The position numbers and the translations under genes are program-made. DNA of 64,000 nt from Nocardia ninae NBRC 108245 (lineage in GTDB: Bacteria; Actinomycetota; Actinomycetes; Mycobacteriales; Mycobacteriaceae). A model generated the notes under the pieces. That model was not told the origin of the DNA. It made no database searches and saw only the letters and a program-made list of their open reading frames with translations. The stretch is from contig NZ_BJXA01000004.1 of the NCBI RefSeq assembly GCF_007990755.1, forward strand, positions 124,001 through 188,000, given 5' to 3'. Shown here piece after piece: positions 7,517 to 19,939 of this stretch. Each line of letters opens with the position of its first letter. Position 1 is the stretch's first letter.

Positions 7517-8428
7517 ATTACCCACCTAGCGCCGCGGTCAAACAGGTGGGATGTTTGCGAGCAGCCCTCTACGTGTCGCCTAACTGCCGACGCAATTCGG
7601 AGCCCGCGCCAACGGTGCGAGCTGAGCTAGCAGCAGGCCACCGCCGACACCATCAAAGGTGCCTCACTCGGCGCGACCCGGCGAGCTCTCACCACATCAC
7701 CTATGCGGCGTTCCACCTGCGTATCCAGCCCTCACCGTCACACCGGGCCCAGTTGACGCAGCCAGCACCCGCACGAGCATCGACTCCGCCTTCCAGCCGC
7801 CGGAATCCAACGGCCCATCCAGGACGAAGTGAGTGATTACTCCAGCGCCGCAAGTCTGATCCGCCACCGCTCCGGCCGACGTCATCGTCGGGTTCGCGCC
7901 CCATGACGCCACCCGATGCGACTCAAAAGTCTTGCCTGGCAAGTGGTCCCACAGAGTTGTGGGCAGACGTCGTCCGATCCGAGTCGGCACGGCGTCGATC
8001 TCGGACAGAGCGTAAGCCCAGCGAAACCGCCGTGACGCGGTGAAGTAATCATCTCCAGGGGCGGATGAAAATCTGCACTGACGAAGGTAGACATTTGCCA
8101 ACAGTCGGTATACAGTCGCTGTCGTTCGCATGAAGAAGTCCAGTGGCCGGGCAGGTGAACTGCCCGGAACAGCAAGTTCCACTGTCCCCCTCCGGCGGAG
8201 AAGAGAATCCGGTGCAGTTGGCCGGACCGCCGGAGGGGACGAGGAAGTCAGTGAAGTAGTAGCAAGACACGAACAACTCTGAAGTAAGACCGGCGATCTG
8301 GGAGGTGGTCACTGAGTAGTCACTTATCGGTTCCGCGTCCCAGGCAGTGTCGGGAGCGGTGTAAGACATCGGCCGACAGGGCCGGTGAAAGGAATTGAAG
8401 TCGATCAAACCCCCTCTTCTGTAAATCC
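7517..8428. other. gene-poor stretch with atypical base composition
   Basis: About 900 nt without a convincing gene. The base composition is visibly more AT-rich than the surroundings, especially 8040-8420, with several TAG/TAA-containing runs. Three overlapping minus-strand frames cover it but none has clear codon bias throughout. A hairpin (CCGGGCAG, 5-nt loop, CTGCCCGG) sits at 8147-8167. At about 8205-8240 the minus strand can encode GGPANCT, a heptapeptide that recurs in the real-looking gene at 9298-9717, which suggests decayed genes of a related family. Confidence 0.5.
7697..8182 (-). pseudogene. possible remnant of a hypothetical gene
   Basis: A 161-codon minus-strand frame (MELAVPGSSPARPLDFF start, end GYAGGTPHR). 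The part from about residue 20 on (DYFTASRRFRWAYALSEIDAVP) looks more protein-like than the two competing frames. There is no recognisable family and no clear ribosome binding site, and an adjacent frame upstream (8183-8370) carries GGPANCT in a different phase. It could be the C-terminal part of a frameshifted gene or a chance frame. Confidence 0.22.
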
Positions 8429-10816: not shown

Positions 10817-11146
10817 TCAATATTGCTGCACATAGGTTGTATCGACTCCCAACGCACCGACCACTGTCCCGCCGCCGGGATGCCCGAGCGGTGTCGTCCG
10901 TCCAGGCAGCGGCTCAGTGAAGAAGCGGGCGTTCTCGGTAACGAATTGCTCTTGCTCGGCGGGAATGTCGTCTTCGAAGTAAATCGCTTCGACCGGGCAG
11001 ACCGGTTCACATGCCGCGCAATCGATGCATTCGTCGGGCTGGATGTAGGCCATCCGATTGCCGATGAAAATGCAGTCGATCGGGCACTCTTCGATGCAGG
11101 CCCTATCCAGTACGTCGACGCAGGCGGCGCCGATCACGAATGTCAC
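10817..11146 (-). CDS. fdxA: 7Fe ferredoxin of the FdxA type
   Basis: A 109-residue ferredoxin with two cysteine clusters: CVDVLDRACIEECPIDC near the N-terminus and CIDCAACEPVCP at about 40-51, the pattern of [3Fe-4S]/[4Fe-4S] proteins. The end (PGRTTPLGHPGGG...GALGVDTTYV) matches actinobacterial FdxA. It carries electrons to monooxygenases or reductases in the cytoplasm. I chose GTG at 11146, preceded by GGAGGGG with 7-nt spacing; a frame reaching 11449 overlaps the divergent regulator and lacks support. It is divergent from the broken LysR-type gene, whose product may once have regulated it. Confidence 0.93.
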   Translation of the reverse strand: MTFVIGAACVDVLDRACIEECPIDCIFIGNRMAYIQPDECIDCAACEPVCPVEAIYFEDDIPAEQEQFVTENARFFTEPLPGRTTPLGHPGGGTVVGALGVDTTYVQQY

Positions 11147-11255
11147 GATGTTCCCCTCCACTGTCCTGTGCCCGCGACTCGGGACAGCTACGAGCTTGGT
11201 GCCCTTCCCCACCGCTGGGTAGCGGTCAATACTCACCGCCCCATAAGGTGACCTT

Positions 11256-12190
11256 ATGACCCTGCCGCCGGGTACACCCGACCTAGAGGTACTCGATCTG
11301 CTTGTCTCGGTGGCAGAGCTGGGCAGCCTCGGCGCGGCCGCACGACGGCACGGCATCAGCCAGCCCGCCGCAGGCATGCGCATCAGCACGCTGGAACGTC
11401 GTCTGCGCCTACGGCTGCTCGATCGCGGACACACAGGTTCCGCGCTCACGGATGCCGGTCACACCCTCATCGAACTAAGCCGCCCTGTACTAGCGGCCGC
11501 AGCGACGCTGGCCGACGGAATCGCGGCCCTGCACCACACCGCACGCCCGAGCCTGCACATCGCGGCGTCGAAAACCATTGCCGACCATCGCATTCCGCAC
11601 TGGCTATCAGCGCTACGCAAAATCCGGCCGGAACTGGCGGTGGCGTTGGAGGTGGCAAACTCCCAGCAGGTGACCGCGGCCGTACGCGAGCGCGACACCG
11701 AGCTCGGCTTTGTCGAAGGACCCCATTCACCGCCCGGATTGGGTAGCCGCGTACTCGTCGCCGATGACCTGGTGGTGGTCGTCGCACCGACCCACCCATG
11801 GGCCACTCGCCGCCGTGCGGTGACATTGCGCGAACTCGCCGATACCCCACTGCTGTGGCGAGAGAAGGGCTCGGGCACCCGCGATACGGTGTGGCAAGCC
11901 TCGAGATGCATGGCACACCGGCGCCACCGGCAGCCGAACTCGGCTCGGCCGCAGCGATTCTCGCCACTGCGCGCAGCGCCGCCGCACCCGCGGTGGTCAG
12001 CCGCCTCATCGTCGCCCACGAGCTACGCGCCCGCACGCTCCACGAAGTATCTCTGGACGACTCGATCGTCCTGACCCGAAAGTTCCGCGCCATCTGGCAC
12101 CGCCGCACACCGCCCAACGGCCCCGCCCAAGACCTCGTCGAGCTCGCCATCCGCATAGAGGCGACACGCAGACGGCGCTCGCCGCAGTAG
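11256..12190 (+). pseudogene. LysR-family transcriptional regulator, frameshifted
   Basis: The first frame encodes a LysR helix-turn-helix (LLVSVAELGSLGAAARRHGISQPAAGMRISTLERRL) and most of the effector domain up to GSGTRDTVWQA. At about 11895 the sense jumps to the next frame, which continues LEMHGTPAPPAAELGSAAAILATARSAAAPAVV and ends at 12190. Joined, the product would be about 310 residues, the normal size. Loss of one base near 11895 explains the break. It could be a real pseudogene or a sequencing error. It is divergent from fdxA, with 109 nt between the two starts. Confidence 0.8.
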
Positions 12191-12490
12191 GCGCCATGCG
12201 TATAGCCCGATTGCGAAACGCTCAGGGCACAGCCGGAGTTCGCACTCGATCAGATCGCCAATCCACCGGCACTCCTCTGGCGACCAACGACTCACGGCGT
12301 TGATGGATCGATGCACCGCGTGCCGGTTTCGGCGCCGCAGAACGGCAGCGCCAAGCGAACCTTCCACGCGCCGATCGGCGCAATCATCGCCGTCATTGCC
12401 AATTCTTAAGGCCAACCTGGCCGAGCAACCGCGGCCGAGCGGTAGTTGTCATCGCGGGCGCCTCGAGCAGCTGTGCGACGCCCACACAGA

Positions 12491-12522
12491 CAAGTGAGCA
12501 GGTTCTGGTCTGGCAAGTGAGC
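12491..12522 (+). promoter_or_regulatory. shared regulatory motif, copy A (upstream of FAD enzyme operon)
   Basis: GAGCAGGTTCTGGTCTGGCA (12496-12515) is identical to the minus strand at 18340-18359, and TGAGC follows 2 bases later in both copies. Here the motif is also framed by direct repeats CAAGTGAGC (12491-12499 and 12514-12522), 23 bp apart. It ends 77 nt before the start codon at 12599; copy B lies 71 nt before its gene. The rest of the 400-nt gap 12191-12598 shows no gene. Confidence 0.75.
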
Positions 12523-12598
12523 GCCGCACGGGCCGAATGTGGACAGCGGCCGGACGAGTGCCGCGCCGAGAGTCCGAAACAACTTTCAAGGATCCATC

Positions 12599-14038
12599 AT
12601 GCGAACAAGCGATACAGATCAGACGAGGACCGTTGTGGTGCTCGGCGGCGGGCCGACCGGGTTGACGGCGGCGATGCTGTTGGCGGCGGAGGGCCTGCGC
12701 GTCACGGTGCTCGATCGAGACGTGGCGGACCCGGGTGGTGGCGCGGAAGGTGTGTGGGATCGGTGGCGGCGGCCGGGGGTCAATCAATTCCGGCATCCGC
12801 ACATCATGTTGCCCGGCGCGTATCAGCTGCTAGTGCGGGAGTTGCCGCAGGCGGTGGTCGAGCTGAAGACGCTTGGTGCCGTATCGCACAACATGCTCGG
12901 TGGCGCGTTCGATCTGCCGACCATCGGGGGCCGCAGGCCCGGCGATGAGCGGTTCGAGACGCTGTCGGCTCGGCGACCGGTTATCGAGGCCGGGCTGGGT
13001 ATAGCTGCGGCACAGACCGACGGGATCACCGTTCGCCGTGGCACTTCCGTGGCGGGTTTGCTGACCGAGGCCGGGCAGGGGACGCGCGTCATCGGCGTGC
13101 GCACGGGTGACGGCGAGGTGATCACCGCCGACCTGGTCGTCGACGCGCTCGGTCGTAACTCACCCATCGCCGCGATGCTCACCGATCTCGGGTTGCCCGC
13201 TCCGATTCAGCAGAAGGACGAGGTCGGGTTTCTGGCTTACAGCAGGTACTTCCGCTCCCCCGATGGGTCCATGCCTGCGCAGGCCCCGTGGCCGCTCGAG
13301 CATCACAACAGTCTCGGGATCACCTCCGTGCCGGGTGATGCCGGAACGTGGTCACTGGCGTTGTTCGTTTCCGGTCGCGACCGTGCGATGCGGGGGCTCA
13401 GTGATCCGGCGGCCTGGCAGCGGGCGGTAGCCCTGTATCCGGATATGGCGCACTGGGCCACTTACGGCGAACCGATCACCGGGGTGCTCGCCATGGCGGG
13501 CATGGAATCACGGTATCGCCGGTTCGTGGTCGATGGACGGCCGGTGGCGACCGGACTGCTCAGCATCGGAGATGCCTGGGCGACAACCAATCCGACGTTC
13601 GGCATGGGTATCACGATGGGGATGACGCATGCGGCGCTGCTTCGTGACGTGTTGCGGGAAGTGGGTTTCGAGGATCTGGAGAAGCTGGCACTGCGGTTCG
13701 ACGAGATCACCGAGGCCACCCTCGCACCGGTGCAGCAGGCTTCGGCCGCGTGGGATCGGCACCGGCTCGCGCAGATCGACAGTGAAATCAATGGCGTGCC
13801 TTACGAAACCGACGACCAAGAATGGAATCTTCGGCAGGCGATCGAGGTGGCCAAACTGCTCGATCCGGGGGTATTGCGGGCGTTCGGTGAGGTCGGCTCG
13901 ATGCTGAGCTCACCGGAACAGGCGTTGGCCACACCGGGTCTCGTTGATCGGATCATCGAACTGGGTGCGGGCGCAGCGCCTTATCCTTCGTCCGGCCCGT
14001 CCCGCACGGCGCTGCTGGCCGCGATCGGAGCCGAGTAA
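12599..14038 (+). CDS. FAD-dependent monooxygenase/epoxidase-like oxidoreductase
   Basis: A 479-residue flavoprotein. The dinucleotide-binding motif is GGGPTGLTAAMLLAAEGL near 14-31, with a downstream acidic residue (VLDRD), and a second FAD region is GLLSIGDAWATTNPTFGMGI near 325-345. The GVNQFRHPHIMLPGAYQLL stretch resembles flavin epoxidases and hydroxylases that act on olefins. It is translationally coupled (TAATG overlap) to an epoxide-hydrolase-like gene, so epoxidation followed by hydrolysis is a reasonable inference, but the substrate is unknown. Start ATG at 12599 has AAGGA 7 nt upstream; the motif at 12491 lies in front. Confidence 0.82.
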   Translation: MRTSDTDQTRTVVVLGGGPTGLTAAMLLAAEGLRVTVLDRDVADPGGGAEGVWDRWRRPGVNQFRHPHIMLPGAYQLLVRELPQAVVELKTLGAVSHNMLGGAFDLPTIGGRRPGDERFETLSARRPVIEAGLGIAAAQTDGITVRRGTSVAGLLTEAGQGTRVIGVRTGDGEVITADLVVDALGRNSPIAAMLTDLGLPAPIQQKDEVGFLAYSRYFRSPDGSMPAQAPWPLEHHNSLGITSVPGDAGTWSLALFVSGRDRAMRGLSDPAAWQRAVALYPDMAHWATYGEPITGVLAMAGMESRYRRFVVDGRPVATGLLSIGDAWATTNPTFGMGITMGMTHAALLRDVLREVGFEDLEKLALRFDEITEATLAPVQQASAAWDRHRLAQIDSEINGVPYETDDQEWNLRQAIEVAKLLDPGVLRAFGEVGSMLSSPEQALATPGLVDRIIELGAGAAPYPSSGPSRTALLAAIGAE

Positions 14039-14853
14039 TGCGTATCGAAACCAATGGCATCGAACTCCAGGTTCAGGTGAGCGGCTCTGGACCGGATGTC
14101 CTTCTGGTGCATGGCTTTCCGGACACACACGCCAGTTGGCGCTATCAGGTTCCCGCACTGAACGCCGCCGGGTACCGCACGATCGTGCCCGATCTGCGCG
14201 GCTTCGGTGCTTCGGACAAGCCGGTGGATCTGGCGCAGTACGAGCTCACGGAGTACCTCGCCGATCTCGTCGGAGTGCTCGACGAGCTCGGCGTCGAACG
14301 GGCGCATGTCGTCGGCCACGATTGGGGCGCCTCGCTGGCTTACCTGCTGGCCGCGAGCTACCCGGACCGGGTGGCCAGCCTCACCTGTTTGTCGGTCGCC
14401 AGCCCGGCAGCCGTCGTGGACGCGGGGTTGGCCCAACGCGAGAAGTCTTGGTACTTCCTGCTGTTCCAGTTCTCCGGGATCGCCGAAAGATGGTTGGCGC
14501 AGGACGATTTCGCCAATGCTCGGCAATGGCTGGCCACCCATCCCGACCTCTACGAGGTCATCGAGCGACTGCGTGATCCGCGAGCACTCAGTACCAGCCT
14601 CGGCCTGTACCGCACCGGCGCCGGACCGCAGTTGCTGGTGGAGCCGCCCGCGCTGCCGCCGGTACTCGCGCCGATGCTCGGGGTGTGGAGCAGCGAAGAT
14701 CGGTACCTGACCGAGGAATCGATGACCGGAACCGAGAAGTATGTCGGCGGGTCGTGGCGCTACGAACGCCTCGACGGCGTCGGTCACTGGATGCAACTCG
14801 AAGCGCCGGAGCGGGTCAACGAGCTGTTGCTCGACTTCCTTTCCGGGCAATGA
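14038..14853 (+). CDS. alpha/beta hydrolase, epoxide hydrolase / haloalkane dehalogenase type
   Basis: A 271-residue alpha/beta hydrolase. The oxyanion motif HGFPD is at 25-29, the nucleophile elbow VGHDWGAS carries Asp95 (an aspartate nucleophile, as in epoxide hydrolases and dehalogenases), and the catalytic histidine is in DGVGHWMQLE near the C-terminus. Its ATG overlaps the TAA of the FAD enzyme gene by one base, so the two are made together. It probably opens the epoxide, or hydrolyses an ester or halide, formed by that enzyme. A hairpin terminator follows at 14862. Confidence 0.88.
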   Translation: MRIETNGIELQVQVSGSGPDVLLVHGFPDTHASWRYQVPALNAAGYRTIVPDLRGFGASDKPVDLAQYELTEYLADLVGVLDELGVERAHVVGHDWGASLAYLLAASYPDRVASLTCLSVASPAAVVDAGLAQREKSWYFLLFQFSGIAERWLAQDDFANARQWLATHPDLYEVIERLRDPRALSTSLGLYRTGAGPQLLVEPPALPPVLAPMLGVWSSEDRYLTEESMTGTEKYVGGSWRYERLDGVGHWMQLEAPERVNELLLDFLSGQ

Positions 14854-14861
14854 GCCCGGCC

Positions 14862-14883
14862 GGTCCCACCCTCGGGTGGGACC
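14862..14883 (+). terminator. terminator of the FAD enzyme / hydrolase operon
   Basis: GGTCCCACC and GGTGGGACC form a perfect 9-bp stem with a CTCG loop, 9 nt after the hydrolase stop codon. The regulator gene that follows therefore likely has its own promoter. Confidence 0.75.
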
Positions 14884-14919
14884 GCGGGAACCAACCAGGT
14901 CCCGGAGGCATCCCAATTA

Positions 14920-14933
14920 CATCGTCCACGATG
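14920..14933. promoter_or_regulatory. candidate operator before the STAND regulator
   Basis: CATCGT-CC-ACGATG is an inverted repeat with 6-bp arms, about 60 nt before the start codon at 14996. It may be a control site for the regulator; no factor can be named. Confidence 0.3.
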
Positions 14934-14995
14934 CAAGTCCGGGACACTGTCGATAGCGTTGTCACCACGACGGCCGCCGCGCCGGAAGGAGAGTT

Positions 14996-17023
14996 ATGAG
15001 TGCGACCGAGGGCCGAGCGCTACTGGCCCAGAGCTTGGCCGCCGGGCGTGATCGGGCGTTCGTAGGGCGCGATCTCGAACTCGAGCTGTTCAGGGCGGCG
15101 CTGGCCGGAACCGCGACCGCCCGGCCGGTCCACTACCTACACGGACCCGGCGGCATCGGAAAGTCCGCTCTGCTCAGACGATTCGCGAGCGAAGCACGCC
15201 GAGCGGGCAGGTCGGTGGTCGAAGTAGACGGTCGCACCGTCACGCGCACACCGGAAGGCTTCACGACGGCCGCGGGGATCGCGGTCGAGCAGGCAGGCAC
15301 GGTGCTGCTCGTCGATACCTTCGAAATGTGCCAGGGTCTCGAAGGCTGGCTGTGGGAACGGTTTCTCCCGCAGTTGCCGGTCGGTGCCATCGTGGTGATC
15401 GCCGGACGAGCCGCTCCGGACCCGCTGTGTGCCGCCGACCCGGGGTGGGCCGTTCTGCTCCAGGTCACCGCCTTGCGCAACCTCACCCCGAACGAAGCCG
15501 CCGAGTTCCTGCACGTGCGCCAGGTGCCCGCGAGTGCACAGCAAGCCCTGCTGGGCTTCACCGGCGGCAACCCGCTCGCGCTCGCGCTCGCCGCGGCGGT
15601 GGCCGTGAAAGACCGTGCGGTGGCGGCGGATTGGAAACCGAGCCAGGACACCATCGCCACGTTGCTGTACCAACTGGTCGGCGACACACCCAGCACCGAG
15701 CACCGCAAGGTCTTGGAGATGTGTGCGCACGCCTATGTCACCTCGGAATCGTTGCTGCGGGCGGTATTCGGCGACGCGGCCGCCGAGCTGTTCGCATGGT
15801 TGCGGGTGCAGCCGTTCATCGAGTCGACGGACACGGGACTGTTCCCGCACGACGTGGTGCGGGAGGCGCTCGAGGCGGACCTCAAATGGCGCGACCCCGA
15901 GGGTTTCGCCGAGATGCACCACCGGATGCGGGAACTGCATCTGGCACAGCTGCGTTCGGCGCCACACGCCCAGTTGGTCCAGTCCACCGGCGCGCTCATC
16001 TTCATCTACCGCACCGATCGGCAAATGTCGGAGTTCAATATCTGGCGCGAGACCGGACTCGTGCAAGACCATCCTTATCCGCCGAGCGAGCGGGAACGGG
16101 TGCTTGCTCTGGTCGAGCAGCACGAAGGGCCGGAGTCCGCAGCGATAGCGGCCTTCTGGCTCGACCACCAACCCCAGGCGTTTCGCGTCTACTACTCCAC
16201 TCACACCGGAGAACTTGCCGGCTTCTCCGCCTGGCTCGAACTCGCCGAACCCGAAGGGCTGGAGATAGATCCGGTCGTCGCCGAGGCGTGGAACCACGCG
16301 CGGGCCAACGGACCGCTCCGGCCGGGTGAATATATGGCGTTGGCCCGCTTCACCATCGACGGTGTGGCGTATCAGCGGCCCGCCGCGTCAACCACTTTCG
16401 CGCAGTGGCGCGCGACCGGGGAAATGATCCGCGGCGAACGGCTGGCCTGGTCTTTCGTCGTGATGCGCGACGACGGGTACTGGAACGACCACCTCGGCGA
16501 CATCAACATGCTGCCCACTGCCGCGCCGCCCACTGTCGGCGACCATCGGTACGCCCTGTTCGCCCACGATTGGCGCGCCCAACCCCCGGGCCCGTGGCTA
16601 CAGCAGAAGTCCGAGTCCATGCTGTCGGGTGCCGCGATGGCTGGGGCCGTGCCCGCCCGCGGCGAACTGGTGGTGCTGTCCCGGCCGGAGTTCGACGCGG
16701 CGATCCGCGAGGCCCTGCGCACGCTGCGGCAACCGACGGCACTCGCCGACAATCCGCTCAACCGCAGCAGGCTCGTCGTCGAGAGCGGCAAGACATTGAC
16801 CGAGATTCTCGCCGACGCCGCGCAGGGACTGCTCGGGCAGCGCGGCGGCGAGAAGCTGCACCGCGCGGTGACGATCGCGCACTTCCGTGGAGCGCCGACC
16901 CAGGAGGTGGCGGCCGAGCTGCTCGGATTGCCCTTCAGCACCTACCGTCGCCATCTCACCACCGCGGTGGAGCGGATGAGCGAGCTGCTCTGGCGACACG
17001 AATTGAACGGTGACCTTGTCTGA
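14996..17023 (+). CDS. STAND-type ATPase regulator with C-terminal helix-turn-helix-like domain
   Basis: A 675-residue cytoplasmic protein. Residues 20-60 resemble the start of AAA/NB-ARC signalling ATPases (FVGRDLELELF, Walker A GPGGIGKS at 50-57), Walker B is GTVLLVDTFE at 101-110, and a GxP-like winged-helix segment follows (GFTGGNPLALALAAA). The middle has no clear repeats. The last 50 residues (TQEVAAELLGLPFSTYRRHLTTAVERM) look like a sigma-region-4 or LuxR-like helix-turn-helix. It is probably an ATP-dependent transcription regulator of the neighbouring enzymes. ATG at 14996 has GGAAGGAGAG upstream. Its end overlaps the next gene by 14 nt. Confidence 0.78.
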   Translation: MSATEGRALLAQSLAAGRDRAFVGRDLELELFRAALAGTATARPVHYLHGPGGIGKSALLRRFASEARRAGRSVVEVDGRTVTRTPEGFTTAAGIAVEQAGTVLLVDTFEMCQGLEGWLWERFLPQLPVGAIVVIAGRAAPDPLCAADPGWAVLLQVTALRNLTPNEAAEFLHVRQVPASAQQALLGFTGGNPLALALAAAVAVKDRAVAADWKPSQDTIATLLYQLVGDTPSTEHRKVLEMCAHAYVTSESLLRAVFGDAAAELFAWLRVQPFIESTDTGLFPHDVVREALEADLKWRDPEGFAEMHHRMRELHLAQLRSAPHAQLVQSTGALIFIYRTDRQMSEFNIWRETGLVQDHPYPPSERERVLALVEQHEGPESAAIAAFWLDHQPQAFRVYYSTHTGELAGFSAWLELAEPEGLEIDPVVAEAWNHARANGPLRPGEYMALARFTIDGVAYQRPAASTTFAQWRATGEMIRGERLAWSFVVMRDDGYWNDHLGDINMLPTAAPPTVGDHRYALFAHDWRAQPPGPWLQQKSESMLSGAAMAGAVPARGELVVLSRPEFDAAIREALRTLRQPTALADNPLNRSRLVVESGKTLTEILADAAQGLLGQRGGEKLHRAVTIAHFRGAPTQEVAAELLGLPFSTYRRHLTTAVERMSELLWRHELNGDLV

Positions 17024-17504
17024 CGTCGGCCTGACGATTCCGCTCATCTTCTTCCGCCTCGGCATCGTCGTCCCCGACCTCGATGCCGCCATCGCGCGTT
17101 TCGCCGACGGACTCGGCATCGGGTTCACGGACCCTGTTACCCAACGCATTCCACTGATGGAAGTCAGCGACCGTGCGACGCGCTCGTTCGAATTGACCAC
17201 GGCCATGTCGCGCACGGAACCGCCCTACTACGAGCTGATCCAGGCCACCGGCGACAGCATCTTCGCCAGCCCGGCAACCAAGAAGGTTCTGTATTACGGC
17301 TGCTGGGAACAGGATACGGAGCGCCGCCTCACCCGATTGGCGAGCCGGGGCGTGCCGCCCGAAGTGATCTGGCGACCCGCGCCCAACGCGGCCCCGACCG
17401 CCCTTTTCACCCGACCCGACCGCACCGGCGGCCGGATCGGCTATCTGTCCGCGCAGACCAGGCCCGCCCTCGAGGAATGGGTACGGACGGGCAAGTCCCC
17501 CTAG
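17010..17504 (+). CDS. VOC-superfamily (glyoxalase-like) protein
   Basis: A 164-residue protein of the vicinal oxygen chelate fold: FRLGIVVPDLDAAIARFADGLGIGF is the typical first beta-alpha-beta unit, and YYELIQATGDSIFA the metal-side strand with a glutamate. The usual first-strand metal histidine is replaced (FRLGIVV where many have xHIGI), so metal binding is uncertain. It starts with GTG inside the regulator gene, so the two are coupled. Its TAG stop interlocks with the stop of the opposite gene in a CTAG palindrome. It may bind or convert the compound handled by the locus. Confidence 0.7.
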   Translation: MTLSDVGLTIPLIFFRLGIVVPDLDAAIARFADGLGIGFTDPVTQRIPLMEVSDRATRSFELTTAMSRTEPPYYELIQATGDSIFASPATKKVLYYGCWEQDTERRLTRLASRGVPPEVIWRPAPNAAPTALFTRPDRTGGRIGYLSAQTRPALEEWVRTGKSP

Positions 17505-18262
17505 GGATTCCGCTGACCGGGAAACAAGGACTCCCAGAAGTCGCGCAACGCCGTCGCGGCCGCCGCCGGTTGCTCCAGCATCCACCAGTGCCCGGCGTCC
17601 GGCATGATGTAGAACGTCGCACCGAGCTGGCCAGCGACTTCGGCGGCAAGCAGGTAATCGTCGAACCGGTCGTGCACCGGGTTGACGACGAGTCCCGGTG
17701 CGCACGTTCGCTTCAGCTGGTGCCCCCAATCGCGGTACGGGTTGACCGCGGAACGATAGAAGTCCAGCACCGCCCGGCCCATGCGCGCGTCGAACTGCTG
17801 ATGCATCCGCCGCGCCTGCGCGTCGGGCGCGCCGAGCGAACGCAGCGCCGTCGCAACACCTTCCGGAGCATCGAGGTCGGCGACGACGGCCTGCCGGACG
17901 AATTCCTCACCGGCACCGACGGTCTGCCAGGTCTTGGCGAGCTCGTGCCACCCGTAGTCCGGATGCAGGGCACTCGCCCCGTCGGCAACCCAACTACGCA
18001 GCGCCACATCGGAACTAGTCGCAATCCGATAGACGAGCAGAGCGCCGACGTCGTGGCCGACCAGATCGATCGGGCCGGGAATGCGCCGCAGCTCGGCCTC
18101 CAACCACGCCGCGTACCCATCTTTGGTGGCAACGAACGAATCCGGCCTGCCCCGACCGAATCCCGGCAGCGCTAGAGCGACACTGTCGGTGCCGAGGTGT
18201 GCCCGCACGCCATCCCAGACGTCGGCAGTCTCCGGCATACCATGAACGAAGACGACAGTCAT
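17501..18262 (-). CDS. alpha/beta hydrolase (second of the locus)
   Basis: A 253-residue alpha/beta hydrolase. It starts directly with the HGMPE oxyanion strand, has nucleophile elbow VGHDVGALL (aspartate nucleophile near residue 94) and the catalytic histidine in MPDAGHWWMLEQP. Like the hydrolase at 14038 it has an Asp nucleophile, pointing to epoxide or C-halogen hydrolysis, but the two are only distantly similar. Its promoter region carries copy B of the shared 20-bp motif 71 nt upstream. It is convergent with the VOC gene and divergent from the LuxR-type gene. Confidence 0.85.
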   Translation of the reverse strand: MTVVFVHGMPETADVWDGVRAHLGTDSVALALPGFGRGRPDSFVATKDGYAAWLEAELRRIPGPIDLVGHDVGALLVYRIATSSDVALRSWVADGASALHPDYGWHELAKTWQTVGAGEEFVRQAVVADLDAPEGVATALRSLGAPDAQARRMHQQFDARMGRAVLDFYRSAVNPYRDWGHQLKRTCAPGLVVNPVHDRFDDYLLAAEVAGQLGATFYIMPDAGHWWMLEQPAAAATALRDFWESLFPGQRNP

Positions 18263-18332
18263 CAGCGATCCTCTCTGGTCGACAACACCTGCCCTGGCGG
18301 ACGGGCCGCTGCCTACCTTCGGCGCCGAGCCA

Positions 18333-18359
18333 GCTCAGGTGCCAGACCAGAACCTGCTC
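18333..18359 (-). promoter_or_regulatory. shared regulatory motif, copy B
   Basis: Read on the minus strand, GAGCAGGTTCTGGTCTGGCA (18359 to 18340) is identical over 20 bases to copy A at 12496-12515, followed by TGAGC after two bases. It lies between the divergent hydrolase (start 18262) and LuxR-type gene (start about 18433), so it could control both. Confidence 0.75.
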
Positions 18360-18432
18360 AATTTCCGAGGTGGCAGGTATTGAGCACCGGATGACCTGTC
18401 GGCTGAGTATCGGTCGGCCGCATGGTTTTCGA

Positions 18433-19128
18433 ATGGGACACAGCGAGCACGTCGACATCACCGCGCAACTCAGCGCCGACCGGGACCCGCGAACCTCGGC
18501 GCCGGTGTCCGGGCGCGTCCGTGTCGCTGTGCACACCACGGATCCGATCACCCGCATGGGCGTGCTGGCGTCGCTGCGTGGACGGGCAGAGGTGCAGGTC
18601 GTTTCCGGTGACGAGACGGCACGAGCGGCGGTACGGGTGGTCGCCGCAGACCGAGTCACCGCGGAAACGCTTGCGTTGCTGCGTGATTCAGCGGAACAGG
18701 CGGACTGCCCGGTGGTCCTGGTGGTCTCCGACGTCGATCCGGCCTACTTGCTGATGGTCGCCGAGTGCCGCGTCGTCGCGATACTCCCCCGCGCGGCCGC
18801 CACCCCGGACCGAGTGATCGCAGCGGTCGCAGCCGCAGCGGCCGGCGCCGGGCTCATCGCACCGGATCTACTCGGCGAACTGCTGCGCCAACTGGAACGA
18901 CTGCATCGGGAGGTGCTCACCCCCAACGCGCTGACCGCCGCGAGCCTGACCGCGCGTGAGATCGAGGTGATCCGGCTGCTCGCCGACGGTTTCACCGCCG
19001 AGATAGCCAGACGGATCAACTACTCGGAACGCACGGTGAAAACGGTGATCTACGGCGTCACCAGGCGGATGAATCTGCGCAGCCGGGCCCAGCTGGTCGC
19101 CCACGCGGTACGCCACGGTGTGATTTGA
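18433..19128 (+). CDS. LuxR/NarL-family transcriptional regulator
   Basis: A 231-residue regulator with a C-terminal LuxR helix-turn-helix (LTAREIEVIRLLADGFTAEIARRINYSERTVKTVIYGVTRRM, about 170-212). The N-terminal half resembles a response-regulator receiver (VRVAVHTTDPITRMGVLASL) but the acidic pair and surrounding motifs are weak, so it may work without phosphorylation. The start is uncertain: ATG at 18433 is chosen because homology-like sequence starts after it, but in-frame ATG at 18391 is possible. It probably belongs to the enzyme locus 12.5-18.3 kb. Confidence 0.78.
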   Translation: MGHSEHVDITAQLSADRDPRTSAPVSGRVRVAVHTTDPITRMGVLASLRGRAEVQVVSGDETARAAVRVVAADRVTAETLALLRDSAEQADCPVVLVVSDVDPAYLLMVAECRVVAILPRAAATPDRVIAAVAAAAAGAGLIAPDLLGELLRQLERLHREVLTPNALTAASLTAREIEVIRLLADGFTAEIARRINYSERTVKTVIYGVTRRMNLRSRAQLVAHAVRHGVI

Positions 19129-19270
19129 GCCGCCTGCCGCGCCGTCATGTTTAGAACTGAAGTGACGGGGATTACCTGTATCGAAGCGTGACGACCGTAG
19201 GCTCGGGCGGGTCCACTGGGTGGTCGACAGATGTCGCGATGGAAGTAGCCGGCTGGAAGGGCTGTGAGCA

Positions 19271-19939
19271 ATGCTGCGGAAGTTCCTTGATCAGGGTGTC
19301 GTCTCGTTGATCGACAAGTCGGCGCGGGCGCAGGCACCGCTGGTGCGCAAGTACACCGGCTTCGTCCGAGGCAGGCATCCGAGCGAATCCCCCGAGCAGA
19401 TCGTCGACCGGCTCGGACGGCATTACTTGATCGCGGTGACCGCCAGCGGCGTGGTCGTCGGCCTCAGCGCGGCGGTGCCGGGTGTCGGCACCCTGGTCGG
19501 GTTGGCCGCGGCCGGAGCGGACACCGTGTTCTTCATCGAGGCCTCGACGGTGTATGCCGTTGGCGCTACCGAAGTTTCGGGCAGTAAGGCCACGGCCCCG
19601 CGGCCGCCGCTCGTCTCGGCGGTTGTACTCGGCCAAGCGGGAACCGAGGGCCTCGGCGCTGCGGGCCGCTCGGCCAAACAGTGGGATACCAAGCTGGCCA
19701 ACAAGCTTCCGATCATCCGGCGGATGGACGACTCGCCGATCAAGCGGTTCCTCGTCCAATTCATCGTCAAGCGGGGCGCGCTCGCGTTCGGCAAGGTGAT
19801 CCCCGCGGGCATCGGCGCCGTGGTCGGCGGCGTCGGTAACAACGCGCTGGCTCGCGGCGTCATCAAGAACCTGCACGAAGCTCTGGACGAGGCAGAGCCC
19901 GGCCGGGCGGTGTCCGCGTCATCCACCAAGGGCGCCTAA
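19271..19939 (+). CDS. conserved hypothetical protein, possibly membrane-associated (EcsC-like)
   Basis: A 222-residue protein. After a charged N-terminus comes a glycine- and alanine-rich hydrophobic segment (ASGVVVGLSAAVPGVGTLVGLAAAGADTVFFIEA, about 58-91) and another near the end (VIPAGIGAVVGGVGNNALARGV), resembling EcsC-family proteins. Function unknown. The gene overlaps the convergent 19919 gene by 21 bases. ATG at 19271 has a modest AAGGG 9 nt upstream. Confidence 0.6.
   Translation: MLRKFLDQGVVSLIDKSARAQAPLVRKYTGFVRGRHPSESPEQIVDRLGRHYLIAVTASGVVVGLSAAVPGVGTLVGLAAAGADTVFFIEASTVYAVGATEVSGSKATAPRPPLVSAVVLGQAGTEGLGAAGRSAKQWDTKLANKLPIIRRMDDSPIKRFLVQFIVKRGALAFGKVIPAGIGAVVGGVGNNALARGVIKNLHEALDEAEPGRAVSASSTKGA

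Follow-up and report, generated by a model that had tools for sequence, protein, structure and literature searches.

Two enzyme transcription units on opposite strands of one locus in Nocardia ninae NBRC 108245 are preceded by the same 20-bp motif, which raises the question of whether they share an operator and, if so, which protein reads it. The motif, GAGCAGGTTCTGGTCTGGCA, lies in a stretch of 64,000 nucleotides of contig NZ_BJXA01000004.1 (assembly GCF_007990755.1, positions 124,001 to 188,000 of the forward strand; here called the window, whose own numbering is used below). One copy stands before a gene for a flavin adenine dinucleotide (FAD)-dependent monooxygenase and the other before a gene for an alpha/beta hydrolase, the second of two in the locus. 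Judging from sequence comparison, we consider it probable that the 20-mer forms the central part of an operator recognised by a STAND ATPase encoded in the same locus (14996-17023, + strand), and that this protein is an activator which binds a phased array of boxes through its C-terminus. The recurrence of the site beside relatives of this local regulator in several phyla suggests a group of transcription activators that has not yet been named.

The two copies are found where the original prediction placed them, at 12496-12515 (+) and 18340-18359 (-), each identical to the motif and each followed two bases later by TGAGC, as had also been claimed. No further copy occurs in the window even at up to three mismatches, and 100 shuffles of the window gave a mean of 0.01 copies, none of them with two. 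The distances to the genes, previously given as 77 and 71 nt, were each too small by 6 nt: 83 nt separate the end of copy A from the monooxygenase ATG (12599), and 77 nt separate the end of copy B from the second hydrolase's ATG (18262). Across the whole genome (9,698,742 bases) the 20-mer is not scattered at random, which had been named as a point to check: there are 7 matches with up to three mismatches (two exact, one with a single mismatch and four with three), versus 3 for the reversed pattern. The four weakest matches are near the level of that control. The third good copy (contig C27, 59519-59538) lies 76 nt upstream of a second FAD monooxygenase gene, so that all three copies with at most one mismatch in the 9.7-Mb genome precede an enzyme gene.

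The 20-mer belongs to a longer site, of which it forms the core: a 28-bp array of three boxes, with a -10 hexamer at a fixed distance from the array. The boxes are direct repeats, TGAGCA, TGGTCT and TGAGC, spaced 11 and 12 bp apart, and a -10-like hexamer follows 12 bp further on. Beyond the 20-mer, the three genome copies align without gaps as TGAGCAGKTTCTGGTCTGG-N4-TGRGC-N12, followed by GAATGT, GAAGGT or GAAGGT. Predicted operator A, before the monooxygenase, thus occupies 12495-12522 (+), with TGAGCA at 12495-12500, TGGTCT at 12506-12511 and TGAGC at 12518-12522; its hexamer GAATGT (12535-12540, +) is 12 bp past the last box, an offset that is fixed across the family. Predicted operator B, before the second hydrolase, was located by the motif match and a three-box scan at 18333-18360 (-), and its hexamer GAAGGT (18315-18320, -) is likewise 12 bp past the last box. 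The boxes and their spacing are nearly constant among orthologues in the genus. The middle box TGGTCT is suggested to be a worn copy of the outer ones, because the corresponding position reads TGAGCT in the tandem array of locus L128 and TGAGCA in L153.

Comparison within the genus ties the site to the STAND gene. Close relatives of the window's STAND protein (at least 71%) occur in 9 of 148 genomes, and in all nine the site precedes the monooxygenase, in one of them (G121) with three mismatches to a 21-mer; orthologous loci, which the original prediction had proposed to examine, therefore keep the site. The strict pattern TGARCA-N6-GGNCTGG-N4-TGARC is found exactly in 12 of the 148 genomes, namely the same nine and three more (G025, G095 and G147), and hence in only 3 of the 139 genomes without a close STAND relative. 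Of these three, G095 has a STAND protein at 40%, and the gene that follows its strict site resembles the second hydrolase at its start; the match in G147 is probably due to chance. The second FAD monooxygenase carries the site in all six genomes examined for that gene. The copy on contig C27 probably belongs to the same regulon, since the second monooxygenase and the STAND gene share one locus, together with sites, in G072, G067 and G108 (with the second hydrolase as well in G072 and G108). In G121 (L101, about 7914-8362, and L100), STAND remnants with stops lie near sites, and elsewhere in the chromosome a full-frame STAND gene has beside it a short hydrolase frame and a site.

A second STAND clade (38-46%) has a site that is related to the window's but 1 bp longer. 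Full-length STAND relatives at 38-43% are present in nine more genomes of the genus, and a fragment in a tenth; in seven of these nine genomes a monooxygenase gene directly adjoins the STAND gene. In those seven and in G182, from another genus, YGARCAR-N6-GGNCTGG-N4-YGARC was recognised by eye before or at the monooxygenase start (8 of 8 regions), with the exception that the seventh letter is C in G182. For G020 and G006 the gene starts were probably called too far upstream, because the called start falls within or just behind the site. The site of G142 points away from the STAND gene, and no site was seen near the STAND gene of G090 when that region was read by eye. The column consensus of the genus sites was built without G127.

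A motif search with up to two mismatches in 150 genus genomes gave 75 matches in 62 genomes. Several kinds of look-alike were set aside. The sequence GCGCAGGTGCTGGTCTGGCA accounts for 42 of the 75 and was put down as coding after inspection of one example (L009), in a gene that we take to be panB. The match in L068 was rejected as lying inside a coding frame, that in L215 was set aside as adjoining an unrelated gene, and that in L214 was rejected as part of a minisatellite, whose units of about 23 bp (around 7305, in G131) begin with TGAGC and imitate the operator.

For a wider view, a rule derived from the Nocardia sites and one relative (G182) was applied to 80 STAND loci taken from GTDB genomes, which were the top 80 among at least 188 relatives found by STAND alignment search; these include three Nocardia loci (L117, L120 and L184) whose sites helped write the rule. 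At 15 of 17 positions or better the rule gave 100 matches, versus 9 in reversed sequence. With the window's gap pair of 6 and 4 there were 24 matches at 16 of 17 or better, versus a mean of 0.88 for 148 other gap pairs, the highest of which gave 11 (7/7). For the gap-pair scan and those that followed, L165 was dropped as a second copy of L163, leaving 79 loci (1.59 Mb), in which L130, L131 and L168 are near-identical and all counted. Exact strict sites number 12 in 10 of these 79 loci, versus none in reversed sequence, and in 296 genomes of the class the strict pattern occurs once, in N. ninae itself. Sites beside STAND relatives are also found in other actinobacteria, in Chloroflexi, in cyanobacteria and in a metagenome-assembled genome of the Thermaceae. 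A plasmid collection holds eight records with a STAND relative.

Of 58 sites that scored above the best reversed control with a position weight matrix, 27 lie outside the STAND gene but within 1 kb of it, 1 lies inside, 12 are at 1-3 kb and 18 are farther away. Wherever a monooxygenase relative was found near the STAND gene (tblastn, E 1e-6), a site stands in front of it (11 of 11 loci, three being the Nocardia loci already used), at no more than 121 nt from the start of the monooxygenase match in ten loci and at 280 nt in L164. Other frames behind sites are SnoaL-like, DUF4331, Asp/Glu-racemase-like, D-Ala-D-Ala-ligase-like and luciferase-like, and 8 of 20 such frames have no Pfam match at E 1e-5; the genes behind distant sites are mechanically called frames, and the one for L128 does not follow the hydrolase match present there. 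In Nonomuraea, Acrocarpospora and Qaidamihabitans (L129, L133, L134, L135 and L154), sites stand before a frame of 230 aa, which is Asp/Glu-racemase-like in L135, the only one checked. L129, L133, L134 and L135 also have a frame of 318-320 aa behind sites, D-Ala-D-Ala-ligase-like in L129, again the only one checked.

Within 1.5 kb of STAND genes, box spacings of 11 + 12 bp were counted 19 times and 11 + 11 bp 13 times, and none of the other 98 combinations exceeded 6 (reached at 16/7). At 31 of 48 sites a hexamer of the form nAnnnT is present at offset 12, versus 2.1 +/- 1.4 with shuffled tails and no more than 5 at any other offset from 0 to 35; the 48 sites were taken regardless of their downstream sequence and reduced by similarity from 59, and overlapping registers of one array (L153, L172, L128 and L164) are still counted repeatedly among them. 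Boxes and -10 hexamer together occur at offset 12 in 28 of the 79 loci, and never in the reversed control. When offsets 4 to 23 were scanned in the same way, offset 23, which is one box further on, gave 11 and the remaining offsets gave 5 or fewer. Some arrays are longer, with five boxes at alternating spacings of 11 and 12 bp in L128 and runs of boxes in L153 and L172. Since the -10 hexamer is fixed, the middle box comes to lie close to -35 and the last box within the spacer, and a protein bound there must either help or block the polymerase; we favour activation.

The proposed activator is a protein of 675 aa with an N-terminal AAA_16 match (E 6.3e-10, above the cut-off), that is, a NOD-type NTPase with a Walker A motif (P-loop GPGGIGKS) whose residues G50, G52, G53, G55 and K56 are invariant across 19 aligned sequences. 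Near the C-terminus it reads PFSTYRRHL, and PF(S/G)TYRR(H/Q)L is invariant or nearly so in the 19 STAND sequences; it was also one of the two search words for the distant loci, many of which share it by construction. We read this segment as a helix-turn-helix. A middle stretch of 321 aa, examined for a repeat-type sensor, has no Pfam match, and the Pfam scan of the protein gave neither a GerE match nor the combination of Trans_reg_C and BTAD. Sites with several boxes would fit the multimerisation and cooperative binding of STAND activators.

Several results weigh against the assignment of the site to the STAND protein. The helix-turn-helix was assigned by eye and from a Pfam match to HTH_23 that is weak (E 0.03, below the cut-off), and the C-terminus of the STAND protein of L177 has no Pfam helix-turn-helix match. 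G025 has a perfect strict site (L067, 8418-8445, -) beside a LAL-like gene (LAL, large ATP-binding LuxR-type regulator) and hydrolases, and has no STAND relative at E <= 1e-20; its site is possibly a relic. All GTDB loci were chosen by their STAND gene, so that its presence there is by construction. The gap pair of the second clade (7/4) gave only 4 matches at 16 of 17 or better in the 79 loci. None of the 295 other genomes of the class has the strict pattern, although 11 of them have a STAND relative; a looser site is seen in 4 of the 13 STAND loci of these 11 genomes, a count made without a control and in which L201 repeats the sequence of L164. The position weight matrix, by which 38 of the 79 loci score above the best reversed control, was trained partly on 13 of the loci scored. 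Finally, the three-box scan showed no site within 3.5 kb in 42 of the 79 loci, and these include relatives closer than many of the site-bearing ones, such as Streptomyces L118 and L119 (56-60% STAND). Four of the 42 (L123, L125, L132 and L191) do show a site by the matrix; the site-less loci may have different operators or targets elsewhere, or the rule may not be family-wide. Near the STAND genes of L207, L208 and L213 there are TGAGCA-like triples spaced 10 + 10 bp, perhaps a variant operator.

Other proteins of the neighbourhood might bind the site. A SARP-type activator (BTAD family) is an unlikely binder. In its favour, the accessible part of PMC10936776 describes SARP sites as composed of direct repeats near a -10 hexamer, with 11 or 22 bp from one repeat to the next. 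Small SARP genes lie in the L064 and L066 loci and a SARP-NB-ARC gene in L059, but the site also precedes the SARP gene of L064, which makes that SARP a likely target, and no SARP is among the seven proteins around the window sites. The last SARP repeat is, moreover, 8 bp from the -10 in the same part of that source, and here the distance is 11-12 bp. A BTAD match above the family cut-off was obtained in all 12 site-bearing genomes queried and is strong in 8; because all 12 formally pass, we give slightly more weight to a SARP and less to the STAND protein than we otherwise would. In the other four genomes (those of L170, L172, L175 and L193) the best matches are weak (E 1.9e-5 to 2.8e-4), and since control genomes such as E. 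coli match too (5 of 14 over the cut-off), these are read as probable cross-matches of repeat proteins. Binding by the LuxR-type regulator encoded at 18433, or by a LAL, is somewhat less likely still. The LuxR-type gene does adjoin operator B, and LAL-like genes (898-940 aa, AAA_16 plus GerE) are present in L061, L064 and L112; yet the LuxR-type gene was matched in only 1 of 25 mapped loci besides the window (L062, N. suismassiliense), and in L060 (G060), where site, monooxygenase, hydrolase and STAND gene are all present, the 19 kb mapped contain no LuxR match and no frame of LAL size. The original prediction named two regulators; of these the STAND ATPase is the likely binder, and the LuxR-type gene, which has a possible site of its own, looks like a target.

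Repression by the STAND protein is another reading, since the presumed -35 and the spacer, both covered by the last two boxes, are places where a repressor could act as well. We regard this, too, as improbable, given that the spacing to the -10 is fixed across phyla, that no good -35 was seen by eye in the genus sites (the N. ninae copies included), and that the STAND regulators MalT and AfsR are described as activators in the portions available of PMC4381067 and PMC10936776. That the motif is a chance, coding or mobile repeat is scarcely credible. Look-alikes do exist, as the coding stretch behind 42 of the 75 genus matches and the 23-bp minisatellite of G131 illustrate, but the shuffle, genome, gap-pair, class-genome and offset controls all oppose this explanation, the upstream flanks of the copies differ by eye, the Rfam scan gave no match, and the site is conserved before orthologous genes across species. 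The earlier reading of a common activator site is thus supported, the support being comparative throughout.

If the STAND protein is indeed the activator, then on sensing an inducer it would exchange nucleotide and oligomerise, and its C-terminal helix-turn-helix domains would be placed on successive boxes along one face of the DNA. With the middle box at about -35 and the last box in the spacer, it would compensate for a poor -35 and recruit RNA polymerase. Its targets in N. ninae would be the monooxygenase/epoxide-hydrolase-like pair, the second hydrolase and the second FAD monooxygenase on the other contig; possible further targets are the STAND gene itself, as the third gene of the operon, and perhaps the LuxR-type regulator. 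More tentatively, the whole STAND activator family (actinobacteria, Chloroflexi, cyanobacteria and others) may keep one promoter grammar, with helically phased TGAGCA boxes and a -10 at a fixed distance across phyla, and may bind head-to-tail along the DNA in an open helical assembly that advances about 11.5 bp per step. Such an assembly would explain the longer arrays (L128, L153 and L172) and a possible drift of the middle box to TGGTCT.

The operon behind operator A begins with the monooxygenase (479 aa, 12599-14038, +), whose nearest solved relatives are the polyether epoxidases LasC/Lsd18 and MonCI, and continues with an alpha/beta hydrolase (271 aa, 14038-14853, +) that by sequence matches is closest to epoxide hydrolases; our guess is that the pathway consists of epoxidation and then ring opening of some small molecule. 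Between this hydrolase and the STAND gene there is a hairpin, GGTCCCACC-CTC-GGGTGGGACC (14862-14883), without a T run, which might possibly attenuate STAND expression within the operon; an Rfam scan of 11000-19500 gave no match and so identified no RNA element there. A gene for a VOC/glyoxalase-like protein (17010-17504, +) overlaps the end of the STAND gene, and the second alpha/beta hydrolase (253 aa, 17501-18262, -) lies behind operator B. Divergent from operator B, a third and weaker putative operator, TGAGCACCGGATGACCTGTCGGCTGAGT (18381-18408, +), faces the gene for the LuxR-type (GerE) regulator (18433-19128, +), which may be its target. It scores 15/16 in the three-box scan, versus 16/16 for A and B, and three other places in the window reach 14/16; in N. 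suismassiliense a site at the same place scores 14.6 bits, versus 12.6 for the highest reversed control. Its -10-like hexamer CATGGT (18421-18426, +) is at the usual offset, and because it sits 6 bp upstream of the LuxR ATG, the mRNA may be leaderless, with the ATG approximately at the transcription start. Upstream of operator A, the LysR-type gene at 11256-12190 looks frame-disrupted, truly or by assembly, since its N. suismassiliense relative is matched in two frames (residues 1-215 and 216-272).

An operator that can be read across phyla would permit target prediction in unstudied genomes and a search for inducers, and such a group of activators would allow tests of how STAND proteins assemble on DNA. 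It would also link monooxygenases, hydrolases, and SnoaL-like and racemase-like proteins to one type of switch. A literature search, with most subscription papers outside its reach, yielded no published description that we recognised of this site or this STAND group.

To our knowledge, MalT and some antibiotic regulators are the main known examples of STAND transcription activators. MalT has a LuxR-type C-terminal domain, whereas the window protein has no GerE match and ends in a short unnamed segment instead. In the part of PMC4381067 available, E. coli MalT is described as a STAND ATPase that combines an NTPase core with a DNA-binding effector domain, multimerises and binds several boxes cooperatively; the window protein is also a STAND ATPase with an NTPase core, and its sites are multi-box. 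The two differ in that MalT has a repeat-type sensor and MalT boxes (same part of PMC4381067), and here there are 675 aa and TGAGCA boxes spaced 11/12 bp. The accessible part of PMC10936776 counts AfsR, too, among the STAND proteins, and the AfsR/SARP sites described there resemble ours in having direct repeats one helix turn apart over the -35/-10 spacer. Their repeat spacing of 11 or 22 bp is partly matched by the 11 + 12 or 11 + 11 bp seen here, but the window protein is without Trans_reg_C and BTAD, there are three boxes, and the last repeat is 11-12 bp rather than 8 bp from the -10. With the LAL-like neighbours it shares an AAA_16 ATPase and, putatively, a C-terminal DNA-binding part; those proteins have 898-940 aa and a GerE domain, and the window protein has 675 aa and no GerE match.

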